Made by a program: the position numbers and the translations under genes
Shown here: positions 15,514-23,531 of the stretch, piece by piece
How positions within the stretch are numbered: the stretch's first letter is position 1
How the letters are laid out: every line of letters begins with the position of its first letter
The notes under the pieces: generated by a model
Databases searched by the model: none
What the model saw: only the letters and a program-made list of their open reading frames with translations
What the model was told of the DNA's origin: nothing
Origin: Deltaproteobacteria bacterium
Lineage (GTDB): Bacteria; Desulfobacterota; Dissulfuribacteria; Dissulfuribacterales; UBA3076
NCBI GenBank assembly: GCA_003194485.1
Contig: PQXD01000001.1
Coordinates: 235,252-290,236 of the forward strand
Direction: 5' to 3'
DNA length: 54,985 nucleotides

Positions 15514-16341
15514 TCAATATCCCGTTTTTGTAGCTTTTTTCAGTTCCTCAATGAATTCTCCCACCTTTTTGACCAGGTCGGGGCCGGCCTTAAGATCATC
15601 GCCCTGTTTGATCGTGTGTGCCTCAATCAGTTTTATAATGGCGCTTCCAACAATAATCCCGTCTGCTACGGCAGAGAGCATGGATACCTGGTCGGGTGTG
15701 GAGATCCCGAAGCCCACTGCCACCGGCTTGCTGGTGAGCTGTCTGATTCCGTTAAGGCCCTGAGACAGTTCCGCAGGAAGCCGAGCCCTTGCCCCGGTAA
15801 TACCGGTTACGGAGACATAGTACATGAAACCCTGAGTGGCCTTGGCAATTTTCCTGGCTCGATCTGCCGGGGTGTTCGGGGCCACGAGCAGGATATTGGC
15901 AAGCCCCTGGGGTTTTGCAACTGCCATCCAGGCTCCGGCCTCCTCCAGGGGCAGGTCGGGGATTATGGTACCGTCGAGACCGGAGTTAGCCGCGTCTTTT
16001 GCGAAAGCAGAAAGGCCGTACTGGAGTACGGGGTTATAGTAACCCATAAGGACCAGTGGGATACCGGTCCTTTTTCGGACCTTCTCAACCAGCCTGAATA
16101 AATCCTTTGCGTTTATTTTGCGGCGGAGTGCCCTCTGGCTTGAGGCCTGGATAGTCGGGCCGTCTGCCAGGGGATCCGAGAAAGGAAGGCCAAGCTCTAT
16201 AAGGTCTGCACCCTGGCGGTCCATCTCCAGTATCAAGGCCTCTGTAGTGGCAATGTCCGGATCTCCGGTGGTTATGAACGGGATGAGCGCTGCTTCTCTC
16301 CTTTTCCTGAGCCGTGAGAACATACTATCTATTCGGTTCAT
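15514..16341 (-). CDS. trpA: Tryptophan synthase alpha subunit
   Basis: 275-aa TIM barrel that cleaves indole-3-glycerol phosphate to indole and glyceraldehyde 3-phosphate, passing indole to TrpB. The catalytic Glu and Asp are in [21 protein letters not shown] (about residues 41-60), and the phosphate-binding GFGIS and GSAIIKLIE segments are present. Last gene of the trp operon. Its start overlaps the trpB stop by four bases, a typical sign of coupled synthesis of the two subunits. Confidence 0.98.
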
Positions 16342-17564
16342 TTGTGAGTCCTCCCCTTGAGCAATTCCGCTACCGTGGCAACGTCTTTGTCTCCCCTTCC
16401 GGAGAGGTTGATCACCACAATGCTACCTCTGGGAAGAGAAGGGGCGAGCTCCTTCAGGTAGGCGACGGCATGGGCGCTTTCCAGGGCAGGTATGATCCCA
16501 TCGGTCTCTGAAAGCAGCCTGAATGCCTGAAGGGCCTGTTCATCGTCAACCGCTGCGTACTCGACTCTGCCTGAGTCCTTAAAAACGCTGTGCTCCGGTC
16601 CCACACCCGGATAGTCAAGACCCGGGGCGAGTGAGTGGGCGCCTTTTATCTGGCCCCAGCGGTCCTGCAGCAGATAGCTCATAGCGCCGTGGAGCACGCC
16701 GGGGCTGCCAACGCTCAGGGTGGCGGAGTGATAGTCTGTTTCAAGACCTTTTCCTGCCGCCTCAACTCCTATCAGGCGTATTCCCCGTTCCTTCAGGAAT
16801 GGATAGAAGATCCCCATGGCGTTGCTCCCGCCGCCGACGCAGGCCATCACCACATCCGGCAGGCATCCGGCAAGCTGCCTGATCTGCCTTCGCGCCTCCT
16901 TCCCGATCACGCTCTGAAAATTCCGGACCATCATTGGATATGGATGGGGACCCACCACGGAGCCTATGACATAGTATGTGTCTCCGACATTTGTAACCCA
17001 GTCCCGTATCGTCTCATTTATTGCATCCTTGAGGGTCTGTGTCCCGGAGAGTACAGGAATGACCCTTGCCCCGGTCAGTTCCATGCGAAAGACGTTCATG
17101 GACTGGCGTACCATGTCCTTGCGGCCCATGTAGACTTCGCACTTCAGGCCCATCAGGGCGGCTGCAGTCGCAGTAGCCACACCGTGTTGCCCTGCGCCGG
17201 TCTCGGCTATGATCCTTGTTTTTCCCATGCGTTTTGCCAGGAGTACCTGGCCGATAGTGTTGTTGATCTTATGCGCCCCGGTGTGGGCGAGGTCTTCACG
17301 CTTGAGAAATACCCTTATTCCGCCGCCTACGGCCTCTCCAAGGCCTTTCGCCTCGAAGAGCGGGGTAGGGCGCCCCACGTAATTCTTGAGGATCTGATTG
17401 AGTTCCTTCTTAAATCCGGCATCCCGCTTGGCCTTCCGGTATGCTGAATCCAGCTCCGTAATGGCGGGCATAAGGGTCTCCGGCACAAAACGGCCTCCAT
17501 AGACACCAAAGTGACCCAGATTATCCGGTGACTGGTTGATCGGTTGATCGGTTGACTTGTTCAC
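16338..17564 (-). CDS. trpB: Tryptophan synthase beta subunit
   Basis: 408-aa PLP enzyme condensing indole with serine to make tryptophan. The PLP lysine is in [13 protein letters not shown] (about residues 95-107), the indole tunnel region in [19 protein letters not shown], and the phosphate-binding [10 protein letters not shown] loop follows. Typical TrpB1 length and start ([21 protein letters not shown]). Two PINQ/DQPI repeats precede the conserved N-terminus and are probably unstructured. Located between trpF and trpA in the operon. Confidence 0.98.
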
Positions 17565-17587: not shown

Positions 17588-18208
17588 CTAATCCAACGTG
17601 GCCCTGCGTATAAATTCGGCTACCAGGCCAATATTCTTTTTCCCTGGAGCATTCTCTACACCCGAGCTTACATCCACTCCCCAGGGCCGGACCTGTTTTA
17701 CTGCCCCGGCAACGTTTTCCGGTCTCAGGCCGCCTGCAAGAATAATAGGCCTTGAGAGGACCTTTTTCGCCTCAATCGCTATGGACCAGTCAAAGGTCTC
17801 GCCCGTTCCGCCATGAGCTCCCGGGGACCAGGCATCAAGCAGGAATGCTTTCACAACCTCCTGATACGGCAAAAGGGCCTGAATATCGGCCTCTGTCCTT
17901 ATCCGCCATGCCTTTATGGCCCTTGGAGCAAGCTCTCTGCAAATTTCCGGGGTTTCCTCGCCATGCAATTGCACCAGGTCCAGGCCGCAATAATCTGTTA
18001 TCTGCCTTATTTTTTCAGGAGACTCATTTACAAAGACCCCAACTGTCTGGACCATTGGCGGCAGATTTTGAACAATCTCCCTGGCCCTGTCCGGATATAT
18101 CTGCCTGGGGCTCTTGGCAAAGACCAGTCCTATGGCGTTGGCTCCGGCCTCTGCCACTGCTTTCGCCTCTGACGGATCAGTAAGCCCGCAGACTTTTATT
18201 TTTACCAT
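17588..18208 (-). CDS. trpF: Phosphoribosylanthranilate isomerase
   Basis: 206-aa TIM barrel performing the Amadori rearrangement of phosphoribosylanthranilate to CdRP. The conserved start [27 protein letters not shown] contains the catalytic Cys. The general acid Asp is in [20 protein letters not shown], and the ending [14 protein letters not shown]...GVDVSSGVE binds phosphate. Normal length, third from the end of the operon, 6 bp after trpC. Confidence 0.97.
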
Positions 18209-18214
18209 AAATCC

Positions 18215-18991
18215 CTACATTCTTCCTGCATTAACCAGGGCGGATAGATATTTAATGCGATCTTCGGCCTTCATCAGGGCTTCTCCTATGAGTGCCGCGG
18301 TAATCCCTGCATCAAGGAGCCTCTTTATATCATCAGGTGTTGAGATACCGCTTTCACTTACCAGCGGTATTTCAGAGGGCAGGGCCTTTCTTATCCTGAA
18401 AGTAGCTTCAAGAGATATACTGAAGTCCTTAAGGTTACGGTTATTCACACCGATGAAATCAGCATCTGCGGCAAGCGCCCTTTCCATCTCGTTCTCGTCA
18501 TGGACTTCCACCAGAGGATCCAGCCCCCTTTCTCTTGCGTGGGCCATGAGCTCTGAAAGCATGCTGCCATCAAGCGCAGCCACAATGAGGAGGACTGCAT
18601 CCGCCCCCCAGAGCCCGGACTCTTCAACCTGAAAGTGGTCTATGATAAAGTCTTTTCTCAGGATTGGAAGGTCAATTTCATTTCGTATTTCAGGAATAAA
18701 CTCCAGTTTTCCCTGAAAGAACCTTTCGTCGGTCAGGACTGATACCGCTTTTGCCCCTCCTGACTGGTAATCTTTCGCAATGCTTACAGGGTCGAAATCT
18801 GGACACAGGAGCCCTTTTGAAGGAGATGCCTTCTTGATCTCTGCAATTATGGAGACCCCGGAATCAGAAGCCAGGGCCTTCCTGAATCCCCTCGGAGGGG
18901 CAACTTCATGTTCCGGAGGTATAAATCCCCTGCGACGCCTTTTTTTCAATTCCGCCTTTTTGTTGGCAATTATTGTGTTCAGGATGCTCAT
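18215..18991 (-). CDS. trpC: Indole-3-glycerol phosphate synthase
   Basis: 258-aa TIM barrel closing the indole ring from CdRP. Diagnostic segments are IIAEIKKASPSKG (catalytic Lys), LPILRKDFIIDHFQVEESGLWGADAVLLIVAAL, GVNNRNLKDFSISLE and the phosphate-binding SESGISTPDDIKRL. Not fused to trpF, as it is in enterobacteria. Its start overlaps trpD by four bases. Confidence 0.98.
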   Translation of the reverse strand: MSILNTIIANKKAELKKRRRRGFIPPEHEVAPPRGFRKALASDSGVSIIAEIKKASPSKGLLCPDFDPVSIAKDYQSGGAKAVSVLTDERFFQGKLEFIPEIRNEIDLPILRKDFIIDHFQVEESGLWGADAVLLIVAALDGSMLSELMAHARERGLDPLVEVHDENEMERALAADADFIGVNNRNLKDFSISLEATFRIRKALPSEIPLVSESGISTPDDIKRLLDAGITAALIGEALMKAEDRIKYLSALVNAGRM

Positions 18992-20016
18992 TTGGGCGCA
19001 CCAAAGGCCTTCAAGGCCTCAAGCCTCTTCATGGCCTCCATTGAATCTATGCTCTCGGCAGCTACGAGTACCCCTTCCCTCAGGGATTTTGCCCTGTCTG
19101 CAAGATATATGGCCGCCCCGGCGTTAAAGAGTACCATATCCCTCTTGGGTCCCCTTACACCTGAGATTATGTCTTTCAGTATCCGGGCGTTTTCTTCTAC
19201 ATCTCCGCCTTTCAGGTCTTCGGCCCTGCACGGCTTAAGCCCTGCATCTTCCGGTCTGATCACGAACTCCTTTACTTCACTTCTGTCCCACTGGGCCACA
19301 ATACTTTTACCCAAAAGGCTGAGTTCGTCCAGCCCTCCTTCTCCATGCACCACCCAGGCCCTTTTGCTGCCGAGTCGCCCCAGGACCTCTGCAAGAGGCC
19401 TTGTAAGCATGGGGTCGTAGACCCCGAGCACCTGCACATTTGCCCGGGCAGGGTTTGTAAGGGGTCCCAGGACATTGAATATCGTGCGGATGCCTATCTC
19501 CCGTCTCGGCCCTACGGCGTATTTCATGGCTGGATGAAGGGCGGGGGCGAACATAAAACCTATACCTATGGCCTCCACTGCCCTTGCCACATCCTCCGGC
19601 GACAGAACCAGGTTTACACCCAGGGCCTCAAGTACATCGGCACTCCCTGACCTGCTGGACACGGAACGGTTGCCGTGCTTTGCGACCTTGACGCCGGCCC
19701 CTGCAACCACAAAGGCGGCTGTTGTAGATACATTGAAGGTCCGGGTCCCGTCGCCTCCGGTCCCGCAGGTGTCAACAAGCGGCTCTTCCGGTGATATGTT
19801 TACATGGATACGCAGGGCCTTTCCCCTCATGACCTCGGCTGCGCCGGTTATTTCATCTACAGTCTCACCCTTCATCCTCAGGCCTGTAAGGAGGGCTCCG
19901 ATCTGGGCAGGTGTTGCCTCTCCATCCATAATTATTTCCATAACCGACGAAATCTCAGCCTGGCTGAGGTCTTTTCCGCTTACTATATCAGAGATGGCCT
20001 TTTTTAATGTATCCAT
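18988..20016 (-). CDS. trpD: Anthranilate phosphoribosyltransferase
   Basis: 342-aa enzyme transferring phosphoribose from PRPP to anthranilate. The signature DTCGTGGDGTRTFNVSTTAAFVVAGAGVKVAKHGNRSVSSRSGSADVLEALG and MFAPALHPAMKYAVGPRREIGIRTIFNVLGPLTNPA are intact. Separate from trpG, unlike the TrpGD fusion of E. coli. About 375 bp of repetitive DNA separates it from trpG, so the operon is split here into two blocks. Confidence 0.98.
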   Translation of the reverse strand: MDTLKKAISDIVSGKDLSQAEISSVMEIIMDGEATPAQIGALLTGLRMKGETVDEITGAAEVMRGKALRIHVNISPEEPLVDTCGTGGDGTRTFNVSTTAAFVVAGAGVKVAKHGNRSVSSRSGSADVLEALGVNLVLSPEDVARAVEAIGIGFMFAPALHPAMKYAVGPRREIGIRTIFNVLGPLTNPARANVQVLGVYDPMLTRPLAEVLGRLGSKRAWVVHGEGGLDELSLLGKSIVAQWDRSEVKEFVIRPEDAGLKPCRAEDLKGGDVEENARILKDIISGVRGPKRDMVLFNAGAAIYLADRAKSLREGVLVAAESIDSMEAMKRLEALKAFGAPK

Positions 20017-20391: not shown

Positions 20392-20961
20392 CTATACCCT
20401 GGTTTCCAGAAAATTTCTCATGAGATCGATTCCCTCGGGAGTCATGATGGATTCCGGGTGGAACTGTACTCCCTCCACTGGGAACTCCCTGTGCCTGAAG
20501 CCCATAAGCTCGTCCTGCTCCGACAAGGCCGTGACCATGAGACATTCCGGAAGAGTCGCCTTATCCACAAGGAGAGAATGATACCTCATGGCCTCGAAGG
20601 GATTCGGCAGGCCGCGATATACGCCCCTTCCATCGTGTCTGATCATTGAGGTCTTGCCGTGCATAAGCCTTTCCGCCCTGATTATTTTGCCTCCAAAGGC
20701 AACACCTATGGACTGGTGGCCGAGGCATACGCCCAGGACCGGGATCTTCCCCGCAAAGTAACGTATGGCAGCTACTGATACGCCTGCCTCGCTGGGTGTG
20801 CAGGGACCGGGAGAGACAAGGAGTTGCCCTGGTTTCCAGGAGGCCATCTCTTCCACAGTGGCCTTGTCATTTCTTACGACCTTGATATCCGCCCCCAGCA
20901 TCCCCAGGGCCTGGACGAGATTGTAAGTAAAAGAATCGTAGTTGTCGATAATTAGAAGCAT
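20392..20961 (-). CDS. trpG: Anthranilate/aminodeoxychorismate synthase glutamine amidotransferase
   Basis: 189-aa class I glutamine amidotransferase supplying ammonia to TrpE. The catalytic Cys is in [15 protein letters not shown], the His-Glu pair in [14 protein letters not shown], and the N-terminal [15 protein letters not shown] and [11 protein letters not shown] motifs are intact. In organisms with one copy the same subunit often also serves PabB; this cannot be judged here. It follows trpE by 26 bp. Confidence 0.97.
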
Positions 20962-20987: not shown

Positions 20988-22472
20988 TCATTGTGACAGT
21001 TCCTTATGGGCGACGTGGATGGCCCGCATGAGGGCCTGTCCCTTGCTGATGGTCTCCTCCCACTCAAAAGCGGGATCTGAGTCAGCAACTATACCGGCTC
21101 CGGCCTGCAGGTAAAGCATATCCTTTTTTTGGCAGAGGGTACGAATAGTAATAGCAAGATCCATGTTGCCTGAAAAACCGAGGTATCCCACTGCACCTGC
21201 ATAGGGTCCCCGCCTGGCGTGTTCGAGTTCCTCTATTATCTCCATGGCCCTGATTTTTGGTGCGCCCGACACGGTACCAGCAGGGAAACAGGCCTGCAGT
21301 ACGTCAAACATATCCTTTCCGGGCATCAGTTCTCCTGTAACACCTGTAACAATGTGCATGACATGGGAATAACGTTCCACAGTCATAAGATCTTCAACCT
21401 TTACGCTCCCCATCCTGGCGACCCTGCCGGCATCATTTCTGCCGAGGTCGAGCAGCATCAGGTGTTCCGCCCTTTCCTTAGGGTCAGCAAGAAGCTCCTT
21501 TTCAAGGCGCATGTCCTCCTTTTTATTCTTACCCCTTGGCCTGGTGCCTGCAATAGGCCTCAATTCAATCTTATCGCCTGTCAGCCTGACCAAGATCTCG
21601 GGTGAAGAACCAATGAGCACCTCGTCATCCAGATGCAGGTAATAGAGATAAGGCGATGGATTTATCCTTCTAAGGGCACGGTACAGGTCAAAGGTGGGGA
21701 TAAGATTCTTGCCTGAGAAGCGTTGAGAAAGCACTACCTGGATTATATCTCCTGCCCGGATGTATTCCTTTGCCCTGCGTACAATGTCCTCAAACCGCTC
21801 TTGGGGGACCTCCGGGTTCAGGCTGGTGGCAGGAACGGGATTTTCATGCGGCGCGGGGTAATCCAATCCGTGTCGTATGCGACGGATTACGTCTTTTATA
21901 GCGCCTTTCCCTTTCAGATATACAGATTCCGCTTTGTCATCCTGTTCCACCCTGAGGCATGCAATGATCTTGAGCGTCTGCTTGATATTGTCATAAACAA
22001 GCAGGAGCTCGGGAAACATGAATACTGCATCATTGAACCCTGCAGTATCTGGAAGATTTTCCGGCAGACGTTCCATGAAACGAACCATGTCATATCCCAT
22101 GTATCCAACAGCCCCTCCATAGAATCGGGGGAGACCCCGGACCTCTGCCGGTGAGAATCGTGCCATTATTTCTCTCATGGCAGTGAGCGGATTGGCGGCG
22201 GATATGATTTTGCGCTTGCCTTCAATCTCCGTGAAGATATCATTCCCCTTGCAACCGAAGATCATAAAGGGTCTGAATCCGATAAAGCTGTACCTTCCCC
22301 ACTTCTCCCCGCCTTCAAGACTCTCCAGCAGGAACGAGTAACTATTCTCCCCGAGCTTTGCGAAGAGAGATACCGGAGTGTCAAAATCGACTGCTATCTC
22401 TTTCCATACCGGTATGATATTAGCGCCTTCAGCCACCAGCGATTTGAACAGGGTCAGATCCGGAGTGATCAT
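20988..22472 (-). CDS. trpE: Anthranilate synthase component I
   Basis: 494-aa chorismate-utilising enzyme producing anthranilate. The N-terminal domain has the feedback region LESLEGGEKWGRYSFIG (the LLES motif of tryptophan-sensitive enzymes). The C-terminal catalytic domain has PIAGTRPRGKNKKEDMRLEKELLADPKERAEHLMLLDLGRNDAGRV and the FPAGTVSGAPKIRAMEIIEELE signature. It is the first structural gene of the trp operon, preceded by a leader peptide and attenuator. AAGGAC lies ahead of the ATG. Confidence 0.98.
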   Translation of the reverse strand: MITPDLTLFKSLVAEGANIIPVWKEIAVDFDTPVSLFAKLGENSYSFLLESLEGGEKWGRYSFIGFRPFMIFGCKGNDIFTEIEGKRKIISAANPLTAMREIMARFSPAEVRGLPRFYGGAVGYMGYDMVRFMERLPENLPDTAGFNDAVFMFPELLLVYDNIKQTLKIIACLRVEQDDKAESVYLKGKGAIKDVIRRIRHGLDYPAPHENPVPATSLNPEVPQERFEDIVRRAKEYIRAGDIIQVVLSQRFSGKNLIPTFDLYRALRRINPSPYLYYLHLDDEVLIGSSPEILVRLTGDKIELRPIAGTRPRGKNKKEDMRLEKELLADPKERAEHLMLLDLGRNDAGRVARMGSVKVEDLMTVERYSHVMHIVTGVTGELMPGKDMFDVLQACFPAGTVSGAPKIRAMEIIEELEHARRGPYAGAVGYLGFSGNMDLAITIRTLCQKKDMLYLQAGAGIVADSDPAFEWEETISKGQALMRAIHVAHKELSQ

Positions 22473-22543: not shown

Positions 22544-22582
22544 AAAAAGGCCGTGAACATCTTTGCGTGTCCACGGCCTTTT
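22544..22582 (-). terminator. trp attenuator terminator hairpin
   Basis: On the minus strand AAAAGGCCGTG...CACGGCCTTTTTATTTT forms an 11-bp stem with a 16-base loop and a T-rich tail. It lies between the leader peptide stop and trpE. Its 5' arm (22564-22582) can pair instead with 22608-22625, just after the Trp codons, giving the alternative antiterminator. Confidence 0.9.
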
Positions 22583-22605
22583 GCCCTTGCCCTTAAGGTA
22601 TAAGC

Positions 22606-22698
22606 CTAAAAGGAGCAGACGCGCACTCTCCCTATGTGCCACTGCCACCACCACAGGACTAAATCGGCAATCTGTTTTCCGGCAAAAGGGTGATACAT
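22606..22698 (-). CDS. trpL: trp operon leader peptide (30 aa, four Trp codons)
   Basis: Reads MYHPFAGKQIADLVLWWWQW followed by HIGRVRVCSF and a TAG stop. The Trp-Trp-Trp-Gln-Trp run at residues 16-20 is the control region. An AAGGA site lies ten bases before the ATG. The stop codon lies at the edge of the sequence that pairs with the 5' arm of the terminator. A ribosome stalled on the Trp codons would therefore leave that segment free to form the antiterminator, whereas a ribosome reaching the stop would cover it. This is the classical transcription-attenuation layout. The reading is direct; the regulation follows from the known trp mechanism. Confidence 0.9.
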   Translation of the reverse strand: MYHPFAGKQIADLVLWWWQWHIGRVRVCSF

Positions 22699-22770
22699 CT
22701 GTCGTTTTTCCTTCAGGTAAATACGTTTAAAAAAGTTCGATTAAGGTTATGTAAACTATAGATATATATC

Positions 22771-22799
22771 TTTATGACCTGCTTCTTGGTGATTGTCAA
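22771..22799 (-). promoter_or_regulatory. Probable sigma-70 promoter of the trp operon
   Basis: On the minus strand TTGACA (22794-22799) is followed after 17 bases by CATAAA (22771-22776). It starts about 70-80 bases ahead of the trpL start codon. An AT-rich TATATATCTATAG tract follows the -10 element. No TrpR-type operator was recognised. Confidence 0.7.
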
Positions 22800-22880: not shown

Positions 22881-23531
22881 TCACTTCTCCGGGGAATCAG
22901 ACCCTTGTTCCTCTTCATCGGCGGATTTCTCCAGACTATCAGCCGGGAAAGACCTGTCTTCCCCGGTCGCCCCTTCTGCACTACTGGTAACGGTATTCAT
23001 CCCTTCAGACAGGTCATCCGGAATCTCCTGAACGGCTCTCATTTCAGATGATGCAAGGTTTATTGCCTGATCGATCTCCTCGGGTGGCAGGGCCTCTTCG
23101 TCTATAATCCTCAGATAGCTCTCGAGAACAGAGCGTATTTTATACGTGGCTTCCCTCTGGATTCGCCTGAGCCCTAATATTCGTTCCTCCAATTGAACTG
23201 CCTCCTGATGGGCATCAGCGACTATGCGCTCTGCCTCCAGTTTTGCCTTCTCAAGCACCAGCTCAGCGTCTTTTTCGGCCTGCGACTTCATTTTCTCTGA
23301 TAACTTATGGGCCGAGGTCAGGGCCTCTCTGAATTCTTCTTCTCTCTTTTTCAGGTCCGCTAACTGGGCCTCATAGCCGACCAACTGGTCCTTCATGGCA
23401 TTTTTCTCCCTGATCAGGGAGGTCATGATCTCACTTATTTCCTCAAGAAAAGAGTCTACTTCATCAGGGTCGTAACCCCGGAACCTGGCACGGAATTCCT
23501 TTTCAAGTATTTCGTTCGGAGAGATACTCAT
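22881..23531 (-). CDS. DivIVA-domain cell-division/septum-site protein
   Basis: 216-aa coiled-coil protein. The N-terminus ISPNEILEKEFRARFRGYDPDEVDSFLEEISEIMTSLIREK is the membrane-curvature-binding DivIVA domain. It is followed by a long heptad-rich segment (residues about 40-150) and a low-complexity acidic tail. DivIVA proteins localise to negatively curved membrane, at poles and septa, in Gram-positives; the homologues of Desulfobacterota are less studied. It lies 9 bp after the YggT gene, a pairing also common in Gram-positive division clusters, which supports a division-related role. Confidence 0.88.
   Translation of the reverse strand: MSISPNEILEKEFRARFRGYDPDEVDSFLEEISEIMTSLIREKNAMKDQLVGYEAQLADLKKREEEFREALTSAHKLSEKMKSQAEKDAELVLEKAKLEAERIVADAHQEAVQLEERILGLRRIQREATYKIRSVLESYLRIIDEEALPPEEIDQAINLASSEMRAVQEIPDDLSEGMNTVTSSAEGATGEDRSFPADSLEKSADEEEQGSDSPEK

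Follow-up and report, generated by a model that had tools for sequence, protein, structure and literature searches.

How is the trpEGDCFBA operon at this locus regulated? Its genes lie on the minus strand of the window (the whole stretch of 54,985 nucleotides analyzed here) and were assigned by comparison with protein family models, except for the last, an open reading frame (ORF) that we take to be trpA from its sequence:

20988 to 22472, minus strand: trpE, the first structural gene (TIGR00564 trpE_most, 554.5 bits, cut-off 517.7)
20392 to 20961, minus strand: trpG (TIGR00566, above cut-off)
18988 to 20016, minus strand: trpD (TIGR01245, above cut-off)
18215 to 18991, minus strand: trpC (NF001377, above cut-off)
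17588 to 18208, minus strand: trpF (NF002298, above cut-off; PF00697)
16338 to 17564, minus strand: trpB (TIGR00263, above cut-off)
15514 to 16341, minus strand: predicted trpA

The upstream gene on the same strand belongs to the DivIVA family and ends at 22881. A leader and terminator sit between a conserved predicted promoter and trpE, all on the minus strand:

22794 to 22799, minus strand: predicted -35 hexamer TTGACA, read from the sequence and kept in 5/5 genus members shown
22771 to 22776, minus strand: predicted -10-like hexamer CATAAA after a 17-nt spacer (CATAAA or CATATA in the genus)
22709 to 22713, minus strand: Shine-Dalgarno sequence AAGGA of the leader, AAGGA(A) in L001, L002, L003, L005 and L006
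22606 to 22698, minus strand: leader peptide ORF of 30 codons plus TAG (93 nt, free of indels in 5/5 genus members)
22639 to 22653, minus strand: control codons Trp-Trp-Trp-Gln-Trp (W16 W17 W18 Q19 W20), with Trp clusters also in relatives
22612 to 22649, minus strand: predicted 1:2 hairpin of segments 1 and 2 across the Trp codons (-14.3 kcal/mol)
22608 to 22625, minus strand: segment 2, the predicted 5' arm of the antiterminator, lying within the reading frame of the leader, with 16 pairs to 22582-22564
22564 to 22582, minus strand: segment 3, the terminator 5' arm, common to the antiterminator, with core GCCGTGGACA, near-invariant in the order
22545 to 22582, minus strand: intrinsic terminator 3:4, 15 pairs plus TATTTT, with a T-rich tail to about 22538

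The leader ORF and the terminator are separated by a 23-nt spacer. The initial annotation had called this a complete trp attenuator with a 30-codon WWWQW leader, and the ORF, its codons 16-20, the terminator with its T tail and the competing 1:2 and 2:3 pairings were all found. The pairing that it had put at about 16 base pairs between 22608-22625 and the terminator 5' arm likewise holds: once the Trp-codon arm is removed, 22625-22608 and 22582-22564 form 4+6+6 = 16 pairs. The AAGGA site is present as well, but it lies outside the interval 22544-22698 to which the attenuator had been assigned. Reading of the sequence before the his genes of the window (25742 onward) revealed no leader there.

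A consensus promoter scan did not list the predicted TTGACA-N17-CATAAA pair, since it demanded a T at position 6 of the -10 hexamer. Genus members also share the sequence of the 17-nt promoter spacer: it reads AATCACC-N4-ARCAGGT at 22799-22771 on the minus strand and in L002, L003, L005 and L006, and might act as the operator of some regulator.

Do the predicted structures stand out from chance? Folded alone, the terminator reaches -28.2 kcal/mol (z -5.5), and 0/200 shuffles were equally good. The leader sequence folded without the Trp-codon arm, corresponding to the 2:3 state, has an MFE of -23.1 and by itself is no stabler than shuffles (z -0.85); the same is true of the 1:2 hairpin at 22649-22612 (-14.3 kcal/mol, z -0.02) and of the 92-nt stretch that holds both 1:2 and 2:3 (z +1.1). 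The 2:3 duplex test on this one leader gave p = 0.03. Because the 1:2 and 2:3 folds and the 92-nt stretch are about level with shuffles, it is the terminator, the Trp run and conservation that carry the case.

How would such a leader work? The hairpins 1:2, 2:3 and 3:4 of the E. coli trp attenuator are mutually exclusive, and E. coli trpL (the Rfam family RF00513) resembles the window locus in having a Trp-rich leader ORF and an intrinsic terminator before trpE. At the window locus, RNA polymerase would start about 65 nt upstream of the leader, with a ribosome following. When Trp-tRNA is ample, the ribosome would clear the WWWQW run and cover segment 2 during the last ten codons and termination; with segment 2 covered, segment 3 would pair with segment 4, and transcription would end before trpE. 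When Trp-tRNA is scarce, the ribosome would stall on the Trp codons and leave segment 2, about 12 nt further on, free to pair with segment 3, and the polymerase would continue into trpE. If the leader were left untranslated, hairpin 1:2 would form, making the terminator the default. Transcription start, leader translation, stalling and the change in read-through are steps that we infer.

How far is this arrangement conserved? The nearest named TrpE (L031, 91% identical) comes from record JAJSZR, which PMC10553843 gives as Seep-SRB2 sp. 2 strain FWG174 (Desulfobacterota; Dissulfuribacterales; UBA3076). The nearest named relatives are accordingly Seep-SRB2 (Dissulfuribacterales), sulfate-reducing partners of methane-oxidising archaea. 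Among 60 relatives searched, 56 had a TrpE match; upstream DNA came from 30 loci and 16 further stretches, 9 of the latter from the order, and the order sample comprises 36 trpE upstream stretches of at least 300 nt. An ORF with a Trp run, followed by a terminator, is present in 5/5 same-genus genomes that have trpE and at least 300 nt upstream, the ORF being constant at 93 nt and the spacing from leader stop to terminator ranging from 22 to 28 nt (n = 5). Most pairwise codon differences between genus members (102 of the 125) alter the amino acid, so that conservation of the leader peptide is not in itself proof of translation. What is conserved at the C-terminus is the stretch whose codons make up segment 2; the remainder varies freely.

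In 16/36 upstream regions of the order, trpE is preceded by a leader in which at least two Trp codons cluster, and behind this leader comes a terminator with a GCCGTGGAC-type core. The scan found no such leader in 19/36, and the leader is therefore not essential for the operon; L010 and L014 lack a Trp leader in the scan, yet have a terminator-like hairpin. A short ORF in which three Trp codons cluster is present in 11/36 regions of the order, where shuffles averaged 0.47 (maximum 2); a looser Trp-ORF criterion gives 17/36 against 5.3. Could the arrangement at the window locus simply be the ordinary terminator of the upstream divIVA-type gene, joined to a Trp-rich ORF by chance? The DivIVA family gene does end upstream on the same strand; however, a promoter-like pair lies between it and the leader, and the whole set recurs in relatives far above shuffles, which leaves this explanation with next to no credibility.

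Some leaders in the order have few Trp codons. In L024 a single Trp is left, as against two in its close relative L023, and L144 also has a single-Trp leader; to judge by their sequences, the control regions of L023/L024 and L144 look as if decaying. Such cases show that decay occurs in the order, and the window locus might likewise be an attenuator of which the parts remain and the response to tryptophan has been lost. This is very unlikely, however, given its four Trp codons, strong terminator, 16-pair antiterminator and conserved promoter, and the retention of leader and promoter in 5/5 genus members.

Beyond the order, the 62 upstream regions from other Desulfobacterota in the TrpE scan (L046-L110) contained three-Trp ORFs in 0/62 cases (shuffle mean 0.23), and by the looser criterion 5/62 qualified where shuffles averaged 6.8, so that neither count rises above its shuffles. 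Many of these sequences are titled Desulfobulbaceae or Thermodesulfobacteria, and they show no surplus of Trp-rich leaders before trpE. L121-L124, TrpE relatives from other families, have Trp-rich leaders independent of any covariance model (judged plausible; 4 of the 7 outside-order stretches among the 16 further ones).

A covariance model (R1) was built from the leaders of the order, with 17 model members. Within the order it matched 27/46 genomes at E <= 0.1, and at trpE, with E <= 3e-5, 19/46, 17 of the 19 being the model members. The phylum sample gave matches at E <= 0.1, many of them weak, in 152/395 genomes. The outside-order loci examined were the 24 top matches and 20 further ones (E about 9e-6 to 2e-4), 44 altogether, and Trp-rich leaders were found at 43 of them (24/24 and 19/20, respectively); since R1 itself begins with Trp codons, Trp codons in the matches are partly expected, but a start codon, an open frame and the downstream genes are not. 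Behind the matches at these 44 loci lie trpE in 24 cases (including the TrpE(G) type), trpD in 5, trpB-like genes in 6, DAHP-synthase-like genes in 2 and iorA-like genes in 5; 2 were left unassigned (L158, at a contig end, and L175). Thus, all 42 loci with an assigned downstream gene precede genes of the Trp or aromatic pathways. The family names of the downstream genes were checked against NCBIfam for L157, L172, L180 and L160 (in L157 and L160 a truncated protein scores below cut-off), and the others were named from BLAST to the Trp proteins of the window or from visible likeness to the checked ones (L162, L163, L165, L178, L195). R1 matches on the antisense strand at the same sites are due to the palindromic terminator. 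Two matches, L146 and L149, have a terminator but no Trp leader in the scan, before a gene that is presumably acetate-kinase-like, and were taken as false positives.

The genes behind these leaders vary. WWW or WWWW leaders precede the alpha gene of indolepyruvate ferredoxin oxidoreductase (iorA-like) in L157, L162, L163, L165 and L178, hinting, from their sequence, at a role of the enzyme in tryptophan synthesis; all five belong to family f30 and may represent one event. Six Trp leaders (L172, L174, L196, L197, L198, L203) precede TrpB-like genes unlike the trpB of the window, of which L172 matches PRK12391. In L180 and L195 the leader precedes a DAHP synthase gene, with trpE next in L180.

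Conserved Trp codons and hairpins in relatives had been proposed as a check on the prediction, and they are indeed kept in 5/5 genus members, in 16/36 regions of the order and, phylum-wide, before Trp-pathway genes. The claim that the locus indicates attenuation "in this lineage" is supported, but it was at once too narrow, since the leaders occur phylum-wide, and too broad, since many genomes of the same order have none.

Is the alternative pairing conserved along with the terminator? In an alignment of 17 sequences from the order, the terminator 5' arm is almost invariant, and the consensus folds as the terminator, in which two pairs are backed by changes on both sides. The conserved triple is built on GTCCAC / GTGGAC / GTCCAC. 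The 2:3 duplex was better than with shuffles of the intervening sequence (p <= 0.05) in 10/17 leaders of the order and 21/24 outside it. A partner-permutation test of 2:3 took 26 of the 41 leaders. Outside the order, 0/20000 permutations were as good as the native pairs; within the order, permuted partners were as good in 7960/20000 (n = 11) and no co-variation was detected, because the core hardly varies there. Antiterminator and terminator thus co-vary outside the order, and not detectably within it. In 35/41 leaders, half or more of core segment 2 can fold back onto the Trp region. Core segment 2 starts a median of 18 nt beyond the last control Trp codon (10-90% range 12-22; 41 leaders), and the stop comes a median of 10 codons after that Trp (range 4-15, n = 41), so that the reading frame of the leader enters segment 2 or passes through it. 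The alignment of leaders also shows the pairing register of segment 2 shifting between families.

In sum, a short ORF with a ribosome-binding site and clustered Trp codons precedes the trp genes; an intrinsic terminator lies ahead of the first structural gene; and an antiterminator that would exclude the terminator is found about one ribosome length past the Trp codons, with co-variation support outside the order only. The trpEGDCFBA operon is thus very probably controlled by a transcription attenuator of the classical, ribosome-mediated kind, a reading based on sequence and comparison: the ORF, the Trp codons, the terminator, complementarity, spacing and recurrence before Trp genes.

Might the hairpin instead serve another control system, such as a T-box, a TRAP-like protein or TrpR? 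The genus-conserved promoter spacer could be an operator, which would suit such a regulator. However, neither the T-box (RF00230) nor any other Rfam family matched the window at gathering score, and TrpR (PF01371) was absent from genome G000 and over cut-off in 0/46 genomes of the order, with one weak sub-threshold match. Neither a T-box nor TrpR accounts for the Trp codons, and control of this kind is extremely improbable.

The attenuator reading also has to be set beside a trans role, in which the terminated leader RNA or the peptide acts elsewhere, besides or instead of attenuation in cis. A trans role of the trp leader peptide peTrpL has been reported in Sinorhizobium meliloti (PMC7298713). 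At the window locus, however, the conserved C-terminal residues encode segment 2 and the remainder is free to change in the genus, and the recurrence of leaders before trpE, trpD, trpB-like and DAHP synthase genes points to action in cis. A trans role is accordingly unlikely.

How do these leaders relate to known trp attenuators? The Rfam model Trp_leader (RF00513, gathering threshold 41 bits), which gives 93.1 bits with E. coli, was absent from the window and its own genome, exceeded the cut-off in 0/395 genomes of the phylum (38/395 at E <= 0.01) and found no match up to E = 1 on 7 Desulfobacterota loci. Conversely, R1 gives no match in E. coli at E values up to 10, and none of the places listed for RF00513 coincide, by eye, with those listed for R1. 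In E. coli trpL, 3 codons follow the last Trp, compared with a median of 10 in the Desulfobacterota leaders, where most of segment 2 is coding. In alpha-proteobacteria, leader peptide attenuators precede trpE(G) of the fused type, and some Desulfobacterota matches likewise lie before a gene of the TrpE(G) type; in L160 its truncated protein comes closest to PRK13566 and TIGR01815, below cut-off. PMC1262725 cites a comparative study of attenuation in proteobacteria by Vitreschak and co-workers (2004).

The trp attenuators of Corynebacterium and Streptomyces, as described in PMC1262725, have double or triple UGG codons and terminators, share a conserved complementary triple between antiterminator and terminator, and also occur before trpB2A and trpS. 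Read motif against motif, their triple, gGCC-rGCy-GGCC, differs from the GTCCAC / GTGGAC / GTCCAC of the order. Leader-peptide systems had been shown in Proteobacteria and Actinobacteria before the Firmicutes case of PMC2965389, according to that paper. PMC3766115 regards amino-acid attenuators as perhaps of gamma-proteobacterial origin with few transfers, judged with Rfam motifs; our results suggest that this view partly reflects the Rfam models used. A literature search with partial coverage (open-licence papers) found no report of trp attenuation in Desulfobacterota.

The mechanism itself is textbook, but the Desulfobacterota-wide set of trp attenuators is apparently uncatalogued and, judged from its sequences, seems to differ somewhat in geometry and to have a sequence core peculiar to it. 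It is tempting, though a shade less than evenly balanced, to go further: Desulfobacterota could have an attenuator family of their own, perhaps with an origin separate from that in gamma-proteobacteria; its ORF would extend across segment 2, the ribosome itself would cover the antiterminator arm, and a dispersed regulon would take in trpE, trpD, trpB-like, DAHP synthase and (in one family) iorA genes.

What does this mean for the organisms? Trp leader attenuation would be widespread in a phylum in which the Rfam family does not pick it up, and a covariance model made from these leaders could join annotation. For uncultured bacteria akin to the partners of methane-oxidising archaea, the window locus offers a sequence-only prediction of how tryptophan may be sensed. 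The regulon also gives functional hints for the iorA and trpB-like genes: if the iorA leaders are what they appear to be, indolepyruvate ferredoxin oxidoreductase would serve tryptophan synthesis (indoleacetate to indolepyruvate) rather than breakdown.
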